Source: Marinobacter szutsaonensis (GTDB taxonomy: Bacteria > Pseudomonadota > Gammaproteobacteria > Pseudomonadales > Oleiphilaceae). Taken from it: a stretch of 64,000 nucleotides of DNA. The position numbers were made by a program, and so were the translations under genes. This document shows, piece by piece, positions 19,855 through 25,715 of this stretch (position 1 is its first letter; every line of letters starts with the position of its first letter). The notes beneath the pieces are model-generated. The model saw only the letters and a program-made list of their open reading frames with translations, did not search any database and was not told the DNA's origin. The stretch covers positions 558,001 through 622,000 of the forward strand of contig NZ_BAAAFC010000002.1 of the NCBI RefSeq assembly GCF_039523335.1, read 5' to 3'.

Positions 19855-19964
19855 ACCTTTTCTCGGATGGTGTCGGGGATTGGTAATCGGGTTATGGTAA
19901 CGGTATTCGGGCCGGCGCTCGAGTTTTCAAGATGTCGGACCAGGGTTCTCACGAAAAACCATAG

Positions 19965-20756
19965 GTGTTCAGGTTGAAGCATTATCTGGAGAAGATCCGG
20001 CGGGGGCAGCCGATCAACTACGAAGCCTTTCTTCGCAAACTACCGGAGGATATACGCCGGAAGCACCGGGATATTTTCAGGCCGGAAAAGGTGTCCGGTA
20101 ACGGCTGGGTGGTTCACATTCTGGTCCCGTCGGTCTTTGCGGAGCTTGAACAGTCTTCGGCGGCTCCGGTCAGCCGTGCCCATGCGGCGGAGCAGGGTGA
20201 TTCCCACCGGCACGGAACTGGCCACAGCTTCCTCCTGGTGTATCGGAAGGGACTGGCATCGGATCGTCCGGATACGGTGGTGGTATCCGAGTCCGGGGCA
20301 GACTGTGGCTTCCCGTTGAAATCCTCGGCGATGGTCATAGAAAACGAGGAGAATTTTTTCGAGTATCGGAGAATGCTGGCCTTTGCCTCTGCCTGTGAAA
20401 ATGCCAGCCTTGGCCTGGAAAACTGCGATGTGGTCCTTGGTGGTGGGAACCGGATTACTCGAAGGGCCTGCATGGCCTGGTTGAACCAGTATCAGCGGGT
20501 TTATTGCGCTTTTGATTACGATGCTGGCGGCCTGCAGATGTTTGCGACCATGGCGGATTACCTTGGTGAGAAGGCGGGCTTTGTGCAGCCGCGGAGTCTG
20601 GAGAGTTGGTTGCCGAAATTTCGTAAGGTCCCCGGGAACACCGAGCGATTTACCCGCGCCATCCGGTTGGCAGAGAATCTGGGTTTTTCATCGTTGGCCA
20701 CAGCGTTTCGGGAGACGGGCAAATTCATGGAGCAGGAGATGATTCTGGATGACTGA
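19965..20756 (+). CDS. mksG: MksG/JetD-like TOPRIM nuclease subunit (short form)
   Basis: A 263-residue protein whose C-terminal half is a TOPRIM (DUF2220-type) domain: VIENEENFF (124-132, putative catalytic E126), the turn GGGNRITRRA (159-168) and FDYDAGG (D184, D186). MksG/JetD is the DNA-cleaving subunit of Wadjet/MksBEFG plasmid-defence condensins, and this reading rests on the motifs plus the three condensin genes that follow. It is shorter than the roughly 380-400 residues I expect for JetD, so the N-terminal arm is reduced. A TAG lies directly upstream in frame, so the start is the GTG at 19965, or a TTG at 19974. It overlaps mksB by 8 bases. Confidence 0.8.
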   Translation: MFRLKHYLEKIRRGQPINYEAFLRKLPEDIRRKHRDIFRPEKVSGNGWVVHILVPSVFAELEQSSAAPVSRAHAAEQGDSHRHGTGHSFLLVYRKGLASDRPDTVVVSESGADCGFPLKSSAMVIENEENFFEYRRMLAFASACENASLGLENCDVVLGGGNRITRRACMAWLNQYQRVYCAFDYDAGGLQMFATMADYLGEKAGFVQPRSLESWLPKFRKVPGNTERFTRAIRLAENLGFSSLATAFRETGKFMEQEMILDD

Positions 20757-23691
20757 CCAGCAGGAGAGTAGTAACACATTCCGGTTCGGCATTCGCCGCC
20801 TGGTGCTGGTGGATTCGGCGGGCTTCTGCTATGTCGAAATTCCCGTGGATAACCACGCCCTGATTCTCGGGCCGGGTAACCTGGGCAAGTCCAGCCTGCT
20901 CAATTCCCTGCGACTGTTCCTGTTACCGGAGAACAATTTCAAGAACAGCCGCAACAAGTTTGCGTTCCGCAACGCCAGTGCCGGGAGTTTCTACACGAAC
21001 GAGGAGAGCTACCAGCACTATTTCCCGAGTCAGTTCAGCTTCCTGATTATGGAGGCGGAGAATCCAGCAGGCGTGCACTGCCAGATTCTGTATCGGGAGA
21101 ACAGCAGCCAGCTGAGTTATGGGCGCGCGTTCGTGCCCGTGCCCTATGAACAGCTGCGCCCCTTGTTCTGGAATGGGGAGGATCCCGATGGCATTGGCCA
21201 GGCAGTGCCCGAGTTGTCGTTCAGCCGCCTGTCCGAGGCGCTGAAAAAGCTGTCCCGGGACACGGTTTTTACCAGCGATCCGGGCAAGCTCAAATCCATG
21301 CTCTACAACAGCGAACTGATGACCGGCGATGCCGTGCGCTATTCGGTCCTGCCCCTCGGGGAATCGGATGAGCGCCGGGTGCAGTCACTGCGCACACTGA
21401 TTCTGTTGTTGTTCGAGATGAAGGCCGATGACCGGGCCATGGCCAATGCCGTGGCCAGTATCATCGAGGCCGACAAGAAATTCGCCGACGACGCGTTCGA
21501 CTTCAATATCGACCAGTTCCTCGACAGGCACGAACAACTCAAACAGCAGCAGGCGCAACTGAATCGCATCGAGAAGGAGCGTCCCCGCTTCGAGAAGCTC
21601 AGTCGGGATTACGAGCACTACCAGAACCTGTTACGCAGCCAGCAGGATTTTGCCGCGTTCCGGGAGGGACTTGCCGACGCCCTGCGGGACATTGGTGAGC
21701 AGCGAACCGGCGCGGTCCGGGCTTACAACGAGCAGAATGAAACCCTCAAGCATGTCATGCAGAACCTTAAAAAGCTGGATCAGGATACCAGTGGTCTGAA
21801 GGGAGAAATCCGGGCTGCCGACAGAAACCTGAAGCGCGCGGAGCAGGACCGCTCGGATGGCGAGCTGCTGCTGTCCCAGTATGGTGATATGACCGTGCAG
21901 GAGATTGGCGAAATCCTTCGGGAAGAGCTGGAGCGGAAGCGAAGCCATCTGAATGCACTGAAAAGTGCCGCCCAGGCCGAGATTCGCCTGGCCAAACTTG
22001 CCGAAGAGATCGAAAAGCTGGAGGTCAGGCTAGCGAGCCTGACCGAGAAGGAAAGCAAGCAGCAGTGGCAACTGCAGAATCAGCTGGATGAGTCCGTGGT
22101 GGCGCCGTTGAGAGCGGTTGATGCCAGGTTGGTGATGGCCAGCCCCGGCCGGGATCTTGATGAAGCCACGCGAAAAGCGATTGAAGCCTTCTCGGTGCTG
22201 TTCGAGCAGAGGGAATCCCGCTTTGACTGGTTTGATGTGGAGTATCCGGCGCAGCCGGTGCGGCAACAGGATTTCGCCGGTGACCGAAGGCTGCTTGAGG
22301 GCGAGAAGCGTGGCCTTGAAAAGGAGCGGGCGGAGCTGGCGGACACCGCCAACCACGAGCAGGATCGCCCGCAGCTGATTGCCCGCACGGAAAAGGAAAT
22401 CAAGGCGATCGAAAAGGATCTGGATACTCTGGCCCGTTACCCCGCTGCAGCCACCACGCTCAGGGATGCCTCCCAGGAGAAGGAAGCGGCTGAAGAGGCG
22501 TTGGCGAAACTGGAAGAGCAGGGCCGCCTGGAGCAGGAAAAACTGGAGGCGCTCCAGAATAAAGTGGCGAAGGCCCGGAGTGAAAAGGAGCGCATTGAGG
22601 AACGGGAGAAGGAGCTGGCGCAACTGAACCGCAGCGTGGGTACAGTGGAGCATCGTTTCCAGCACCTGAAAGCGGCAACCGCCGACCAGCCGCTGGCTAT
22701 GGATCAGGTTTCCGTCGCCGCCTTTGATGACCTGCAGAACCAGCTGGACGAGCTGGAGGAGCTGCGGCGGAATATCCTCGATCACCTCCGGCAGTTTGTC
22801 TATCAGGGCATCTATGAGGACGCCGATGGCGAGCTGCAGAAGGACAGCCCGTCCTCGTCGGTGATTCGCGGCGTGTTCAAGAGTCTGTCCGATCTGTTTG
22901 CCGCGCTGGCCGAGCAGTGGACCGTGCTGGAGGGGCAGATCAGTATTCACAATGAAACCGTTGCCAGCTATCGCCAGGCCCTGAAAACCAACCACGAGCA
23001 CATTGCCCGGTTCGAAGCCCAGCTGAACCGTGAACTTGAGGGCGTTCGCATCAACGATCTGGTGGAAATCCGGGTGGATATCCACACCGACCCGAAATTC
23101 CGCAACCTGGTGGAAGAAGCCAACAACATCGACCCCTACGGCAACCAGCTGCAGTCCGATGCCTTCTACGACCGGCTGCGGGTCTTTGTGGCGGATTTCT
23201 TTGGCGAGCAGGGTGGCAGCAAGCGCCTGACCATGGACAGGGTCATTACCGGTATCTCCTACCGAACCCGAAAGGAAAACGCCACCAGCCTCGACAGTAA
23301 AGGCCAGTCGACCTCCACCACGGCGCTGATTAACCTGGAGCTGGTGTACCGGCTGCTCCGGCGCGTCCTGTACCCGGGTGTCCAGCTTTCCTTTCCTTTG
23401 GTGCTGGACGAGCTGGCCAGTGTCGATATCAGCCAGATGCCAGCGTTACTGGACCGGCTTGGCAAGCAGGGTTTCAATCTGTTCTCCGCAGCGACTCACA
23501 GCGCCAGTGCCGAGATGATCTATCTGATTGGCCGGCACCTGGAGGTGGGCCAGATGCGCACCGCCCGGCCCTACAGTCCGCAACGGACGCTGGTGTTCTG
23601 GGGCGGGGCCGAAGGTTTTACCGGTGGCGAGTCCGTAAGCCACTGGGTGGATCAGTCCCAGAGCAGTTTGCTGGAGCCGACGGATGAGTAA
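20749..23691 (+). CDS. mksB: MksB/JetC-like condensin ATPase
   Basis: SMC-like protein of 980 residues, the motor of a MukBEF-type condensin. Walker A is GPGNLGKSS (41-49). Long charged heptad regions (about 265-430 and 510-640) form coiled coils around a hinge-like middle. The C-terminal head has an ABC-signature-like KGQSTST (about 850) and Walker B FPLVLDELASVD (about 882). MukB is about 1480 residues, so the short arms point to the Mks/Wadjet class, which recognises and extrudes plasmid DNA. Overlaps of 8 bases on both sides couple it to mksG and mksF. Confidence 0.88.
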   Translation: MTDQQESSNTFRFGIRRLVLVDSAGFCYVEIPVDNHALILGPGNLGKSSLLNSLRLFLLPENNFKNSRNKFAFRNASAGSFYTNEESYQHYFPSQFSFLIMEAENPAGVHCQILYRENSSQLSYGRAFVPVPYEQLRPLFWNGEDPDGIGQAVPELSFSRLSEALKKLSRDTVFTSDPGKLKSMLYNSELMTGDAVRYSVLPLGESDERRVQSLRTLILLLFEMKADDRAMANAVASIIEADKKFADDAFDFNIDQFLDRHEQLKQQQAQLNRIEKERPRFEKLSRDYEHYQNLLRSQQDFAAFREGLADALRDIGEQRTGAVRAYNEQNETLKHVMQNLKKLDQDTSGLKGEIRAADRNLKRAEQDRSDGELLLSQYGDMTVQEIGEILREELERKRSHLNALKSAAQAEIRLAKLAEEIEKLEVRLASLTEKESKQQWQLQNQLDESVVAPLRAVDARLVMASPGRDLDEATRKAIEAFSVLFEQRESRFDWFDVEYPAQPVRQQDFAGDRRLLEGEKRGLEKERAELADTANHEQDRPQLIARTEKEIKAIEKDLDTLARYPAAATTLRDASQEKEAAEEALAKLEEQGRLEQEKLEALQNKVAKARSEKERIEEREKELAQLNRSVGTVEHRFQHLKAATADQPLAMDQVSVAAFDDLQNQLDELEELRRNILDHLRQFVYQGIYEDADGELQKDSPSSSVIRGVFKSLSDLFAALAEQWTVLEGQISIHNETVASYRQALKTNHEHIARFEAQLNRELEGVRINDLVEIRVDIHTDPKFRNLVEEANNIDPYGNQLQSDAFYDRLRVFVADFFGEQGGSKRLTMDRVITGISYRTRKENATSLDSKGQSTSTTALINLELVYRLLRRVLYPGVQLSFPLVLDELASVDISQMPALLDRLGKQGFNLFSAATHSASAEMIYLIGRHLEVGQMRTARPYSPQRTLVFWGGAEGFTGGESVSHWVDQSQSSLLEPTDE

Positions 23692-25108
23692 GCGCTTCAG
23701 TACCCTGGATACCACGCGGTTACTGTTCGAGCATCCGCGGATCCTGTTTCGGTTGATTGAACGCATGGACCGTCTGGAGGCCCGTTATGTGCGCGAGGCG
23801 GACCTGATCTCCGAGGTGATGGATTATTCGAAAACCCTCGCGAGGGCTGATCGGGAGCGGGTACGGCTGGCCCTGAGCACTGATAACCTGTTCCGGACCG
23901 GATTGGTGATCGACATCATCAAGGCCGAGGGCGAGCGTCGGCTGGTGCTCCAGGACGCGTTGATCAATCTGATGCGGGCCTGCAATGCGTCCCTGTACCA
24001 GGAGCTCACGGATGCCCGGTTGCGGGGACATCTGGTGACGCTCCGGGATGTCCGGGACCGGCTCGAAACCAGCAGTTTCAGCCAGACCGATCCCGACTTC
24101 ACCGAGCTGCGGGACGACCTGAACGAGCGGGTCAGTCAGCTCATCGGTCTGCTTCGCCAGAATGTGTTGCGGATGCAGACCATCAGTGCCCAGCTGGCGG
24201 ATATGTCCGGCGATGCCAGTCGGGTGCCGGAGAGATTCCTGGAGTTCCGGCAGAATCTGTTCGAGCAGATCGTCACCTTGTATGACCGCCACATCAAGCC
24301 CACGCTGGTCTTCCTGAATCCGGACACCCGCCTGCCAGATGGCACCAACCTGTTCGAAACCCTGGAGGCCATGGTCAGACTGCTGGAACAGAACGGGGAC
24401 CACAGTCTCGCAGACCAGCTATTCCGTTCCTCGATCAGTCTGAATGCCCTGTATAAGCCGATCCAGGCCGTGGCGCAGGAAGTGGAGCATTTCCTGCGAA
24501 AGACCCGTCGGGGCATGGTCCAGTACAACGCCATGGAGCATTTCTTCGGCAAGTTGCGGGAACTGAAAGGGGAAACCGAAACCCTGAGCCTGCGCCGCAA
24601 ATGGCTGGAAGGTGGCCATTTTGCCCGCGGAACCGGCTTTCTCCTGGGGCTCCGGGCCCAGTCCCGGCCCAAGCACTACGCGTTTGGCGGCTCCCCCAGT
24701 TATTACCAGTTGCTGTTCAGTGAGCTGGACCTGCGCCTTGCTGATCTGAAACGCAGTGCCGAGGTCCCGGTGTTGCAGGAGCTGGAAGGGAGCAGTCGAG
24801 CCGCCAGGGTGGATGTGCAGCGTATCAACCAGCTCTATCAATGGCTGGAAAGCCTGGAGTTGCGCCCCACCAATGATCTGGTCCGGGAACTGCACGGGCG
24901 CCTGGACGGCTTCATAGAGGGTTATCGCTTCCCGGATTTGCTGGCGGCTCTGAACCGGCTGGTGAACACTCCCCCCGAGGGATTTCACGTGGTGACAACC
25001 AACCGCTTCCGGACGCTCGCTCCGGTTGAGGAAGGAGATAGCCCGTCAGAGCAGTTTGTTTACCGGAAGCGGCGACTGGAACCATCAACAGAGGCAACCC
25101 ATGACTGA
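23684..25108 (+). CDS. mksF: MksF/JetA-like kleisin subunit
   Basis: A 474-residue mainly helical protein, called as the kleisin that links the MksB heads. Position between mksB and mksE, length, and the N-terminal helical region (FEHPRILFRLIERMDRLEARYV cut across 15-36, then DNLFRTGLVIDI) agree with MksF/JetA. The C-terminal part (YQLLFSELDLRLADLKRSAE) would contact the ATPase cap. There are no enzyme motifs, as expected. The identity is inferred from gene context and overall character rather than from a strong motif. Confidence 0.8.
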   Translation: MSKRFSTLDTTRLLFEHPRILFRLIERMDRLEARYVREADLISEVMDYSKTLARADRERVRLALSTDNLFRTGLVIDIIKAEGERRLVLQDALINLMRACNASLYQELTDARLRGHLVTLRDVRDRLETSSFSQTDPDFTELRDDLNERVSQLIGLLRQNVLRMQTISAQLADMSGDASRVPERFLEFRQNLFEQIVTLYDRHIKPTLVFLNPDTRLPDGTNLFETLEAMVRLLEQNGDHSLADQLFRSSISLNALYKPIQAVAQEVEHFLRKTRRGMVQYNAMEHFFGKLRELKGETETLSLRRKWLEGGHFARGTGFLLGLRAQSRPKHYAFGGSPSYYQLLFSELDLRLADLKRSAEVPVLQELEGSSRAARVDVQRINQLYQWLESLELRPTNDLVRELHGRLDGFIEGYRFPDLLAALNRLVNTPPEGFHVVTTNRFRTLAPVEEGDSPSEQFVYRKRRLEPSTEATHD

Positions 25109-25709
25109 TGTAACCGATAGGCCACAGGCCACCGAAAGCACCAGCAGCTTCGAGGCTATTCTTCCGTCGCAGAGTGCGGCGGTATACCGGGAATTCCAGG
25201 CTGGCCGGGTGATCGTGCGCGAGGTATGGGACGCCAACCGGTCCGAGCTGGTTGCCAACCCGCTCTACAACCTTGTTTACAACCATCTCTCGCACTTCCG
25301 TACCCTCTACGAGCATCTGGGCAGTGAGCTGGTATTTAACGAATCCGGCAGTTTCTTCTACCTGAAAGAAAGCAGCGACGATGAATCGGAAGAACACGAT
25401 GAGCATGCCTTTCGGGTCCAGGTGGTTTTGCTGCTCATTGGCCGCTATTTCGCCCGCAGTGGCCGGGACCTTGATTACCTGGGCCGGCCGGATGCCGGCC
25501 TCAAGGACGATGATCTGAGTGCCCTGCAGGAGGATGAGGAGTACCGGGAAATCTTGCGTGCCGCCCGTTTTGAAAAGGGCCTCGCCGAGGCCCTGGACTA
25601 CCTCGACAAACGAAACCTGGTGTTCAAGGCCGGGGCGGGCCGTTATTTCCTCAGTTCGGCAGGTATGTACTTTCTGACAGAGCTGGTGAGGGAATACGAA
25701 AACGGCTGA
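25101..25709 (+). CDS. mksE: MksE/JetB-like accessory subunit
   Basis: A 202-residue acidic protein that fits the winged-helix MksE/JetB subunit, which binds the kleisin and DNA. Typical features are the YNHLSHFRTLYEHLG helix, LIGRYFARSGRDLDYL, and a C-terminal LDYLDKRNLVFKAGAGRYFLSSAG winged-helix part. I chose the ATG at 25101, which overlaps the mksF stop by 8 bases (ATGACTGA). A longer frame back to 25026 lies wholly inside mksF. It is the last gene of the operon and ends 6 bases from the convergent diguanylate cyclase gene. Confidence 0.8.
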   Translation: MTDVTDRPQATESTSSFEAILPSQSAAVYREFQAGRVIVREVWDANRSELVANPLYNLVYNHLSHFRTLYEHLGSELVFNESGSFFYLKESSDDESEEHDEHAFRVQVVLLLIGRYFARSGRDLDYLGRPDAGLKDDDLSALQEDEEYREILRAARFEKGLAEALDYLDKRNLVFKAGAGRYFLSSAGMYFLTELVREYENG

Positions 25710-25715
25710 GGTGTC

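Follow-up and report, generated by a model that had tools for sequence, protein, structure and literature searches.

A Mks/Wadjet-like operon of Marinobacter with a short, leading nuclease gene that is often discarded

Wadjet type I systems, or MksBEFG (JetABCD; Corynebacterium glutamicum, Pseudomonas aeruginosa PA14, Escherichia coli GF4-3), encode an SMC protein, a kleisin, a KITE subunit and a TOPRIM nuclease in one operon. According to the review PMC10586767, small circular plasmids are the target of known type I systems, and the MksBEF of P. aeruginosa works on the chromosome, probably having originated when JetD was lost. The same review proposes, from families that lie far apart, that the MukBEF and MksBEF condensins descend from Wadjet, MksBEF via nuclease loss. 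An operon of similar predicted composition, with genes here called G, B, F and E, lies in a stretch of 64,000 nucleotides (nt) of Marinobacter szutsaonensis DNA (contig NZ_BAAAFC010000002.1, positions 558,001 to 622,000), hereafter the window. Its order, G-B-F-E, differs from the F-E-B-G order given for Wadjet/MksBEFG in PMC10123090. Its presumed nuclease G has 260 amino acids (aa), with about 80 residues ahead of the TOPRIM part versus about 215 in MksG; B has 980 aa versus 1111 in C. glutamicum, and Wadjet/MksBEFG is so distant in sequence that family models and PDB sequence searches do not reach it. Comparison across 124 Marinobacter genomes (genome labels of the form G0xx, locus labels L0xx) demonstrated that the nuclease is a separable module that is often discarded. 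We consider it fairly probable that BFE also has a nuclease-independent job, with G a costly, dispensable plasmid-cutting add-on that has been lost repeatedly. The fuller account, in which a plasmid-defence SMC complex has repeatedly been turned into a plain condensin, in about 12 lineages, with the motor fully selected and the nuclease sometimes parked elsewhere, is in our view somewhat less likely than not.

The count and the tree were based on 57 loci, 42 with an open full-length G and 15 without. Loci left out beforehand were L013, L113 and L119 (contig ends; L113 also with a B frameshift), L112 in genome G102 (B and F frameshifts, G intact, in a single-contig assembly of 94% completeness; this may be sequencing error), L049 (orphan G), L114 (a 38% identical set, G intact), and the distant sets L050-L052 and L115-L118. 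At the 15 loci G has been deleted or survives as scraps; the reading frames of B, F and E are open at every one of them, and each B has intact ATPase motifs. Among the 42 loci with G, L046 (genome G012) carries a premature stop at codon 360 of F beside an intact G, and L091 ends in F at a contig end; both F sequences were excluded from the F alignment.

In a tree of B and F, the 15 G-less loci fall into about 12 groups, counted by eye, and in one part of the tree support for many of the internal nodes reaches only 39-78. Two G-less loci have a G-bearing sister with support of 100 (pairs L087-L098 and L088-L094), and three sister pairs are jointly G-less (genomes G035/G070, G011/G139 and G089/G086). 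The breakpoints of L031 and L086 are nearly identical, yet L032, the sister of L031, has G; this could reflect a hot spot for deletion or an exchange of alleles, and the losses could number 11 instead of 12. The left sides of L045 and L102 differ, so these two may not share one loss. For L108 and L109 the loss was taken as shared because both have the same gene directly upstream, which we presume to be chemotaxis-receptor-like, and neither genome has a match at 1e-60 to gloB, the upstream neighbor of the operon in the window; it is as if gloB and G had been removed in one deletion.

The deletions always spare the start of B and mostly the region upstream of the operon. In 10 of the 15 loci an upstream stretch survives that begins at -250 relative to G and ends between -39 and -12, or beyond; after it, directly or via short G scraps, come 47-122 nt matching the 3' end of G. 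In L045 the stretch runs from -215 into the first codons of G. At the other five loci it is unmatched or represented by a short piece only. L033 keeps just 21 nt of the end of G, and this end is degenerate in L109. AGGAG is present within 20 nt of the B start in all 15 G-less loci and in 37 of the 42 with G. One identical deletion junction is shared by L034 and L097, which come from two sister species (G035 and G070). That G loss is an assembly artifact was rejected on the basis of this junction, the 96-100% completeness of the 15 genomes, and the variation of junctions between lineages. G loss as a mere first step of decay was also considered; no broken B, F or E accompanies it.

Purifying selection on BFE is unchanged after G loss. 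The median tip omega for BFE (three-point estimate) is 0.049 in G-less loci (n=15) and 0.051 in loci with G (n=40, L047 and L110 having no tip estimate; Mann-Whitney p = 0.98). Pooled values are 0.067 and 0.060, respectively, or 0.051 without L108/L109 and 0.054 without L046. At 0.25, L046, with its broken F and intact G, has the highest value estimated, and thus decay is detectable by this measure; L108 and L109 have values of 0.10-0.12. Pairwise NG86 omega for B is 0.052, 0.051 and, in the third pair, 0.125 for the G-less sister pairs, and 0.026-0.065 in the twelve G-bearing pairs shown. For G itself it is 0.12-0.26 in 11 of 12 G-bearing pairs, the twelfth being saturated; G evolves faster than B.

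The window operon consists of four co-directional open reading frames, consecutive frames overlapping by 8 nt at all three junctions. Dozens of genomes conserve these frames, which places the four-gene observation far beyond chance. Features are as follows (window positions):

19891..19931, + strand: region upstream of G, resembling its counterpart in relatives whose operon occupies the same site; presumed promoter region
19911..25715, no strand: presence/absence block (whole operon), absent in G087 and G002
19974..20756, + strand: G, short MksG/JetD-like TOPRIM protein, presumed nuclease, 260 aa, TTG start
20734..20738, + strand: AGGAG, ribosome-binding site of B, within the 3' end of G
20749..23691, + strand: B, predicted MksB/JetC-like SMC ATPase, 980 aa
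23684..25108, + strand: F, predicted MksF/MukF/JetA-like kleisin, 474 aa
25101..25709, + strand: E, MksE KITE subunit by Pfam match (PF21980), 202 aa, ATG start

The start of G is most likely TTG 19974 rather than GTG 19965, to which the frame reaches back, because 80 of the 120 homologues listed are 260 aa long and AGGTG lies just 5' of the TTG. Two homologues, P0066 and P0145, are far longer, at 418 and 410 aa, which may reflect fusion or a wrongly called start. The start of E was corrected from 25026 to ATG 25101. Upstream of the operon is the divergent gene 'gloB', of the metallo-beta-lactamase fold, and downstream a convergent GGDEF gene. A search of the window genome returned a single match each for B and G.

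The families agree with the Mks/Wadjet assignment of an earlier sequence-only reading, but the proteins are very divergent. That reading had proposed a complete set with the nuclease gene first and no mobility gene in the block, and both points hold. E matches Pfam MksE PF21980 at 1.1e-22 (81.6 bits, cut-off 27), identifying it as the KITE subunit; it is far short of the equivalog model for MksE (18.5 bits, 400 needed). The predicted relationship of G to JetD/MksG was borne out chiefly by structure prediction: JetD_C of Pfam scores 19.2 bits, under its cut-off of 22, while fold comparison strongly supports a TOPRIM fold resembling those of MksG (8b7f) and JetD (7til), as expected of a TOPRIM-domain nuclease of this family. 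The C-terminal ExE of G resembles E349/E351 of MksG, a pattern match only. A Pfam scan with E up to 1 found no N-terminal JetD domain in G, which does not have the DUF3322 plus DUF2220 architecture with its N-terminal CAP/arm domain, and the PADLOC models used score the 260-aa protein weakly. No credible family match was found for F in the Pfam scan; its fold is MukF-like with fairly good support, pointing to a kleisin of the MksF/JetA type. B bears ATPase motifs at both ends (Walker A at residues 41-49, signature at 849-858, Walker B at 882-893), and its Pfam matches are to ATPases only and sub-threshold. Matches of B to JetC/LmuB profiles are weak and mostly mid-protein; L050, a 25% relative, matches DUF3584 at 1.6e-5, below cut-off. 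No usable SMC-complex relative emerged from PDB sequence searches, whether with single proteins or with profiles. The best profile match for B was the ATPase end of GajA (2.7e-4), and an SMC3 construct also matched weakly through a coiled coil (0.25); the NCBIfam scan gave no match above cut-off.

Three further comparisons delimit the set. The P. aeruginosa chromosome condensin MksBEF shares the MksE family (Pfam), and the G-less relatives likewise consist of B, F and E only; the window itself differs in that the nuclease is still present, and the B-F-E-only composition applies to 15 of the 57 loci. Some other Marinobacter genomes carry a further Mks-like set (L053:5695-11655, also L055 and L056, and reached in L054), which encodes a 144-145-aa first protein, presumably PIN-like, then F-E-B and a 303-aa DUF7281 protein. 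In L053, the one such locus scanned for domains, MksE (100 bits) and the short DUF7281 protein are above cut-off; the set shares these with the window operon and differs in having the presumed nuclease gene last and a B only ~19% identical. Matches of G to topoisomerase VI-A/Spo11 are confined to residues 82-260, and the four-gene set has no topoisomerase partner gene.

Although the sequence-only reading had suggested that the operon may be a chromosomal standard, it is accessory. B is present at 61% identity or more in 61 of the 124 genomes; other matches comprise a 38% identical set in one genome, a 26-28% identical set only in four more, and a 33% match over just 95 residues in five. It occupies two main sites and several others. 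The first main site is beside gloB and the GGDEF gene, and the second is near genes that we take to be NADH:flavin oxidoreductase-like and CIA30-like. Two close relatives, G087 and G002, cleanly lack window positions 19911-25715; their matched flanks lie 12 nt apart, and the genes closest to the junction keep the order of the window and are 85-100% identical. No repeats or mobility genes were noticed by eye at this junction, where no repeat search was run. The presence of the block varies across the genus, but its order is fixed: G-B-F-E is kept in every related set complete enough to judge, including those only 26-28% identical, and for this reason we regard the nuclease-first order as a lineage trait, not an oddity. 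ScpA is found in 123 of the 124 genomes, which makes BFE an extra condensin; Smc-ScpAB is likely the housekeeping one, and Mks is accessory.

By comparison with characterized relatives, B, F and E would form a DNA-loop-extruding motor which, on running a small circular DNA to completion, would activate G to cut the circle. Sequence and structure models suggest that the window encodes a complete short-nuclease machine of this kind that probably works, and from the same analogy we infer plasmid cleavage by GBFE. That cleavage is the whole function in the genus is unlikely, given that the motor persists alone, its nuclease gone, at 15 of 57 loci. The second job of BFE may be the organization of chromosome or plasmid DNA, as reported for P. 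aeruginosa MksBEF.

An alternative, which we judge unlikely but the strongest of its kind, is that BFE works in trans with a nuclease encoded elsewhere, an orphan G or another TOPRIM protein, the loss of G from the operon being rearrangement only. Whole-genome searches found G away from an intact B in four genomes (G015, G070, G035 and G086), that is, in 4 of 15 G-less genomes versus none of 42 with an intact G beside B (Fisher p = 0.0035). G015 shows reciprocal loss, with an intact orphan G and scraps of B and F at L049 (G015:C16) and BFE with a dead G at its other locus, and in G070 and G035 the orphan lies close to genes that in other species border the full operon at its second main site. 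These findings favor a split system. Against it, the G035 orphan is frameshifted and has lost its EQE end, and no full-length G was found anywhere in 11 of the 15 G-less genomes with G as the query, other TOPRIM proteins not having been searched for.

Slightly more doubtful is pure plasmid defense, the G-less loci being dead remnants too young to have decayed. Defense systems are often gained and lost; the absence of the whole block from two close relatives, and the fast evolution of G even when intact, fit this explanation. The sole identical shared junction, moreover, occurs in genomes with an orphan G, a point that slightly lowers our confidence in a nuclease-independent job of BFE and slightly raises that in pure defense. 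However, remnants would be expected neither to lack any broken B, F or E across 15 loci nor to have their B start spared in every case, and omega is unchanged overall, including L034/L097, which descend from one ancestral deletion, and L045/L102; the third pair has a doubled value that is still low.

A survey of plasmid replicons speaks neither for nor against plasmid exclusion. Rep3 initiators occur in 11 of the 124 genomes: five of the 42 with an intact set, three of the 15 G-less (p = 0.42; replicons are not rarer with the intact set), two with no set (G007, G112) and one with a distant set only (G026). Rep3 matches lie on 12 contigs, 11 of which were looked up and measure 4.6 to 192 kb, possibly fragments; the twelfth is the 4.0-Mb contig of G026. 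A chromosome condensin of the usual MksBEF kind, whose TOPRIM protein is a mere inert passenger and which cleaves no plasmids, would suit this lack of a replicon deficit and a fast-evolving, dispensable G, but is improbable, since the putative catalytic residues E126, N127, E128, D184, D186, E256 and E258 (counted from GTG 19965) do not vary among the 46 intact copies examined, omega for G is well below 1, and G is found only in genomes that also have B, those without B giving no G match.

Searches of the open-access literature found nothing for MksB together with Marinobacter, and for Wadjet with Marinobacter only co-mentions with a single occurrence of either word. If repeated conversion to a plain condensin is true, the change from JetABCD to MksBEF, hitherto no more than a proposal for how MksBEF and MukBEF arose, would be seen at the species level. 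The nuclease-loss step itself recurs within one genus. Intact and G-less sister species form matched pairs, and the function of the motor without the nuclease would therefore be directly testable. The genus would also add a Wadjet-like nuclease of just 260 aa, and such operons should not always be read as plasmid immunity.
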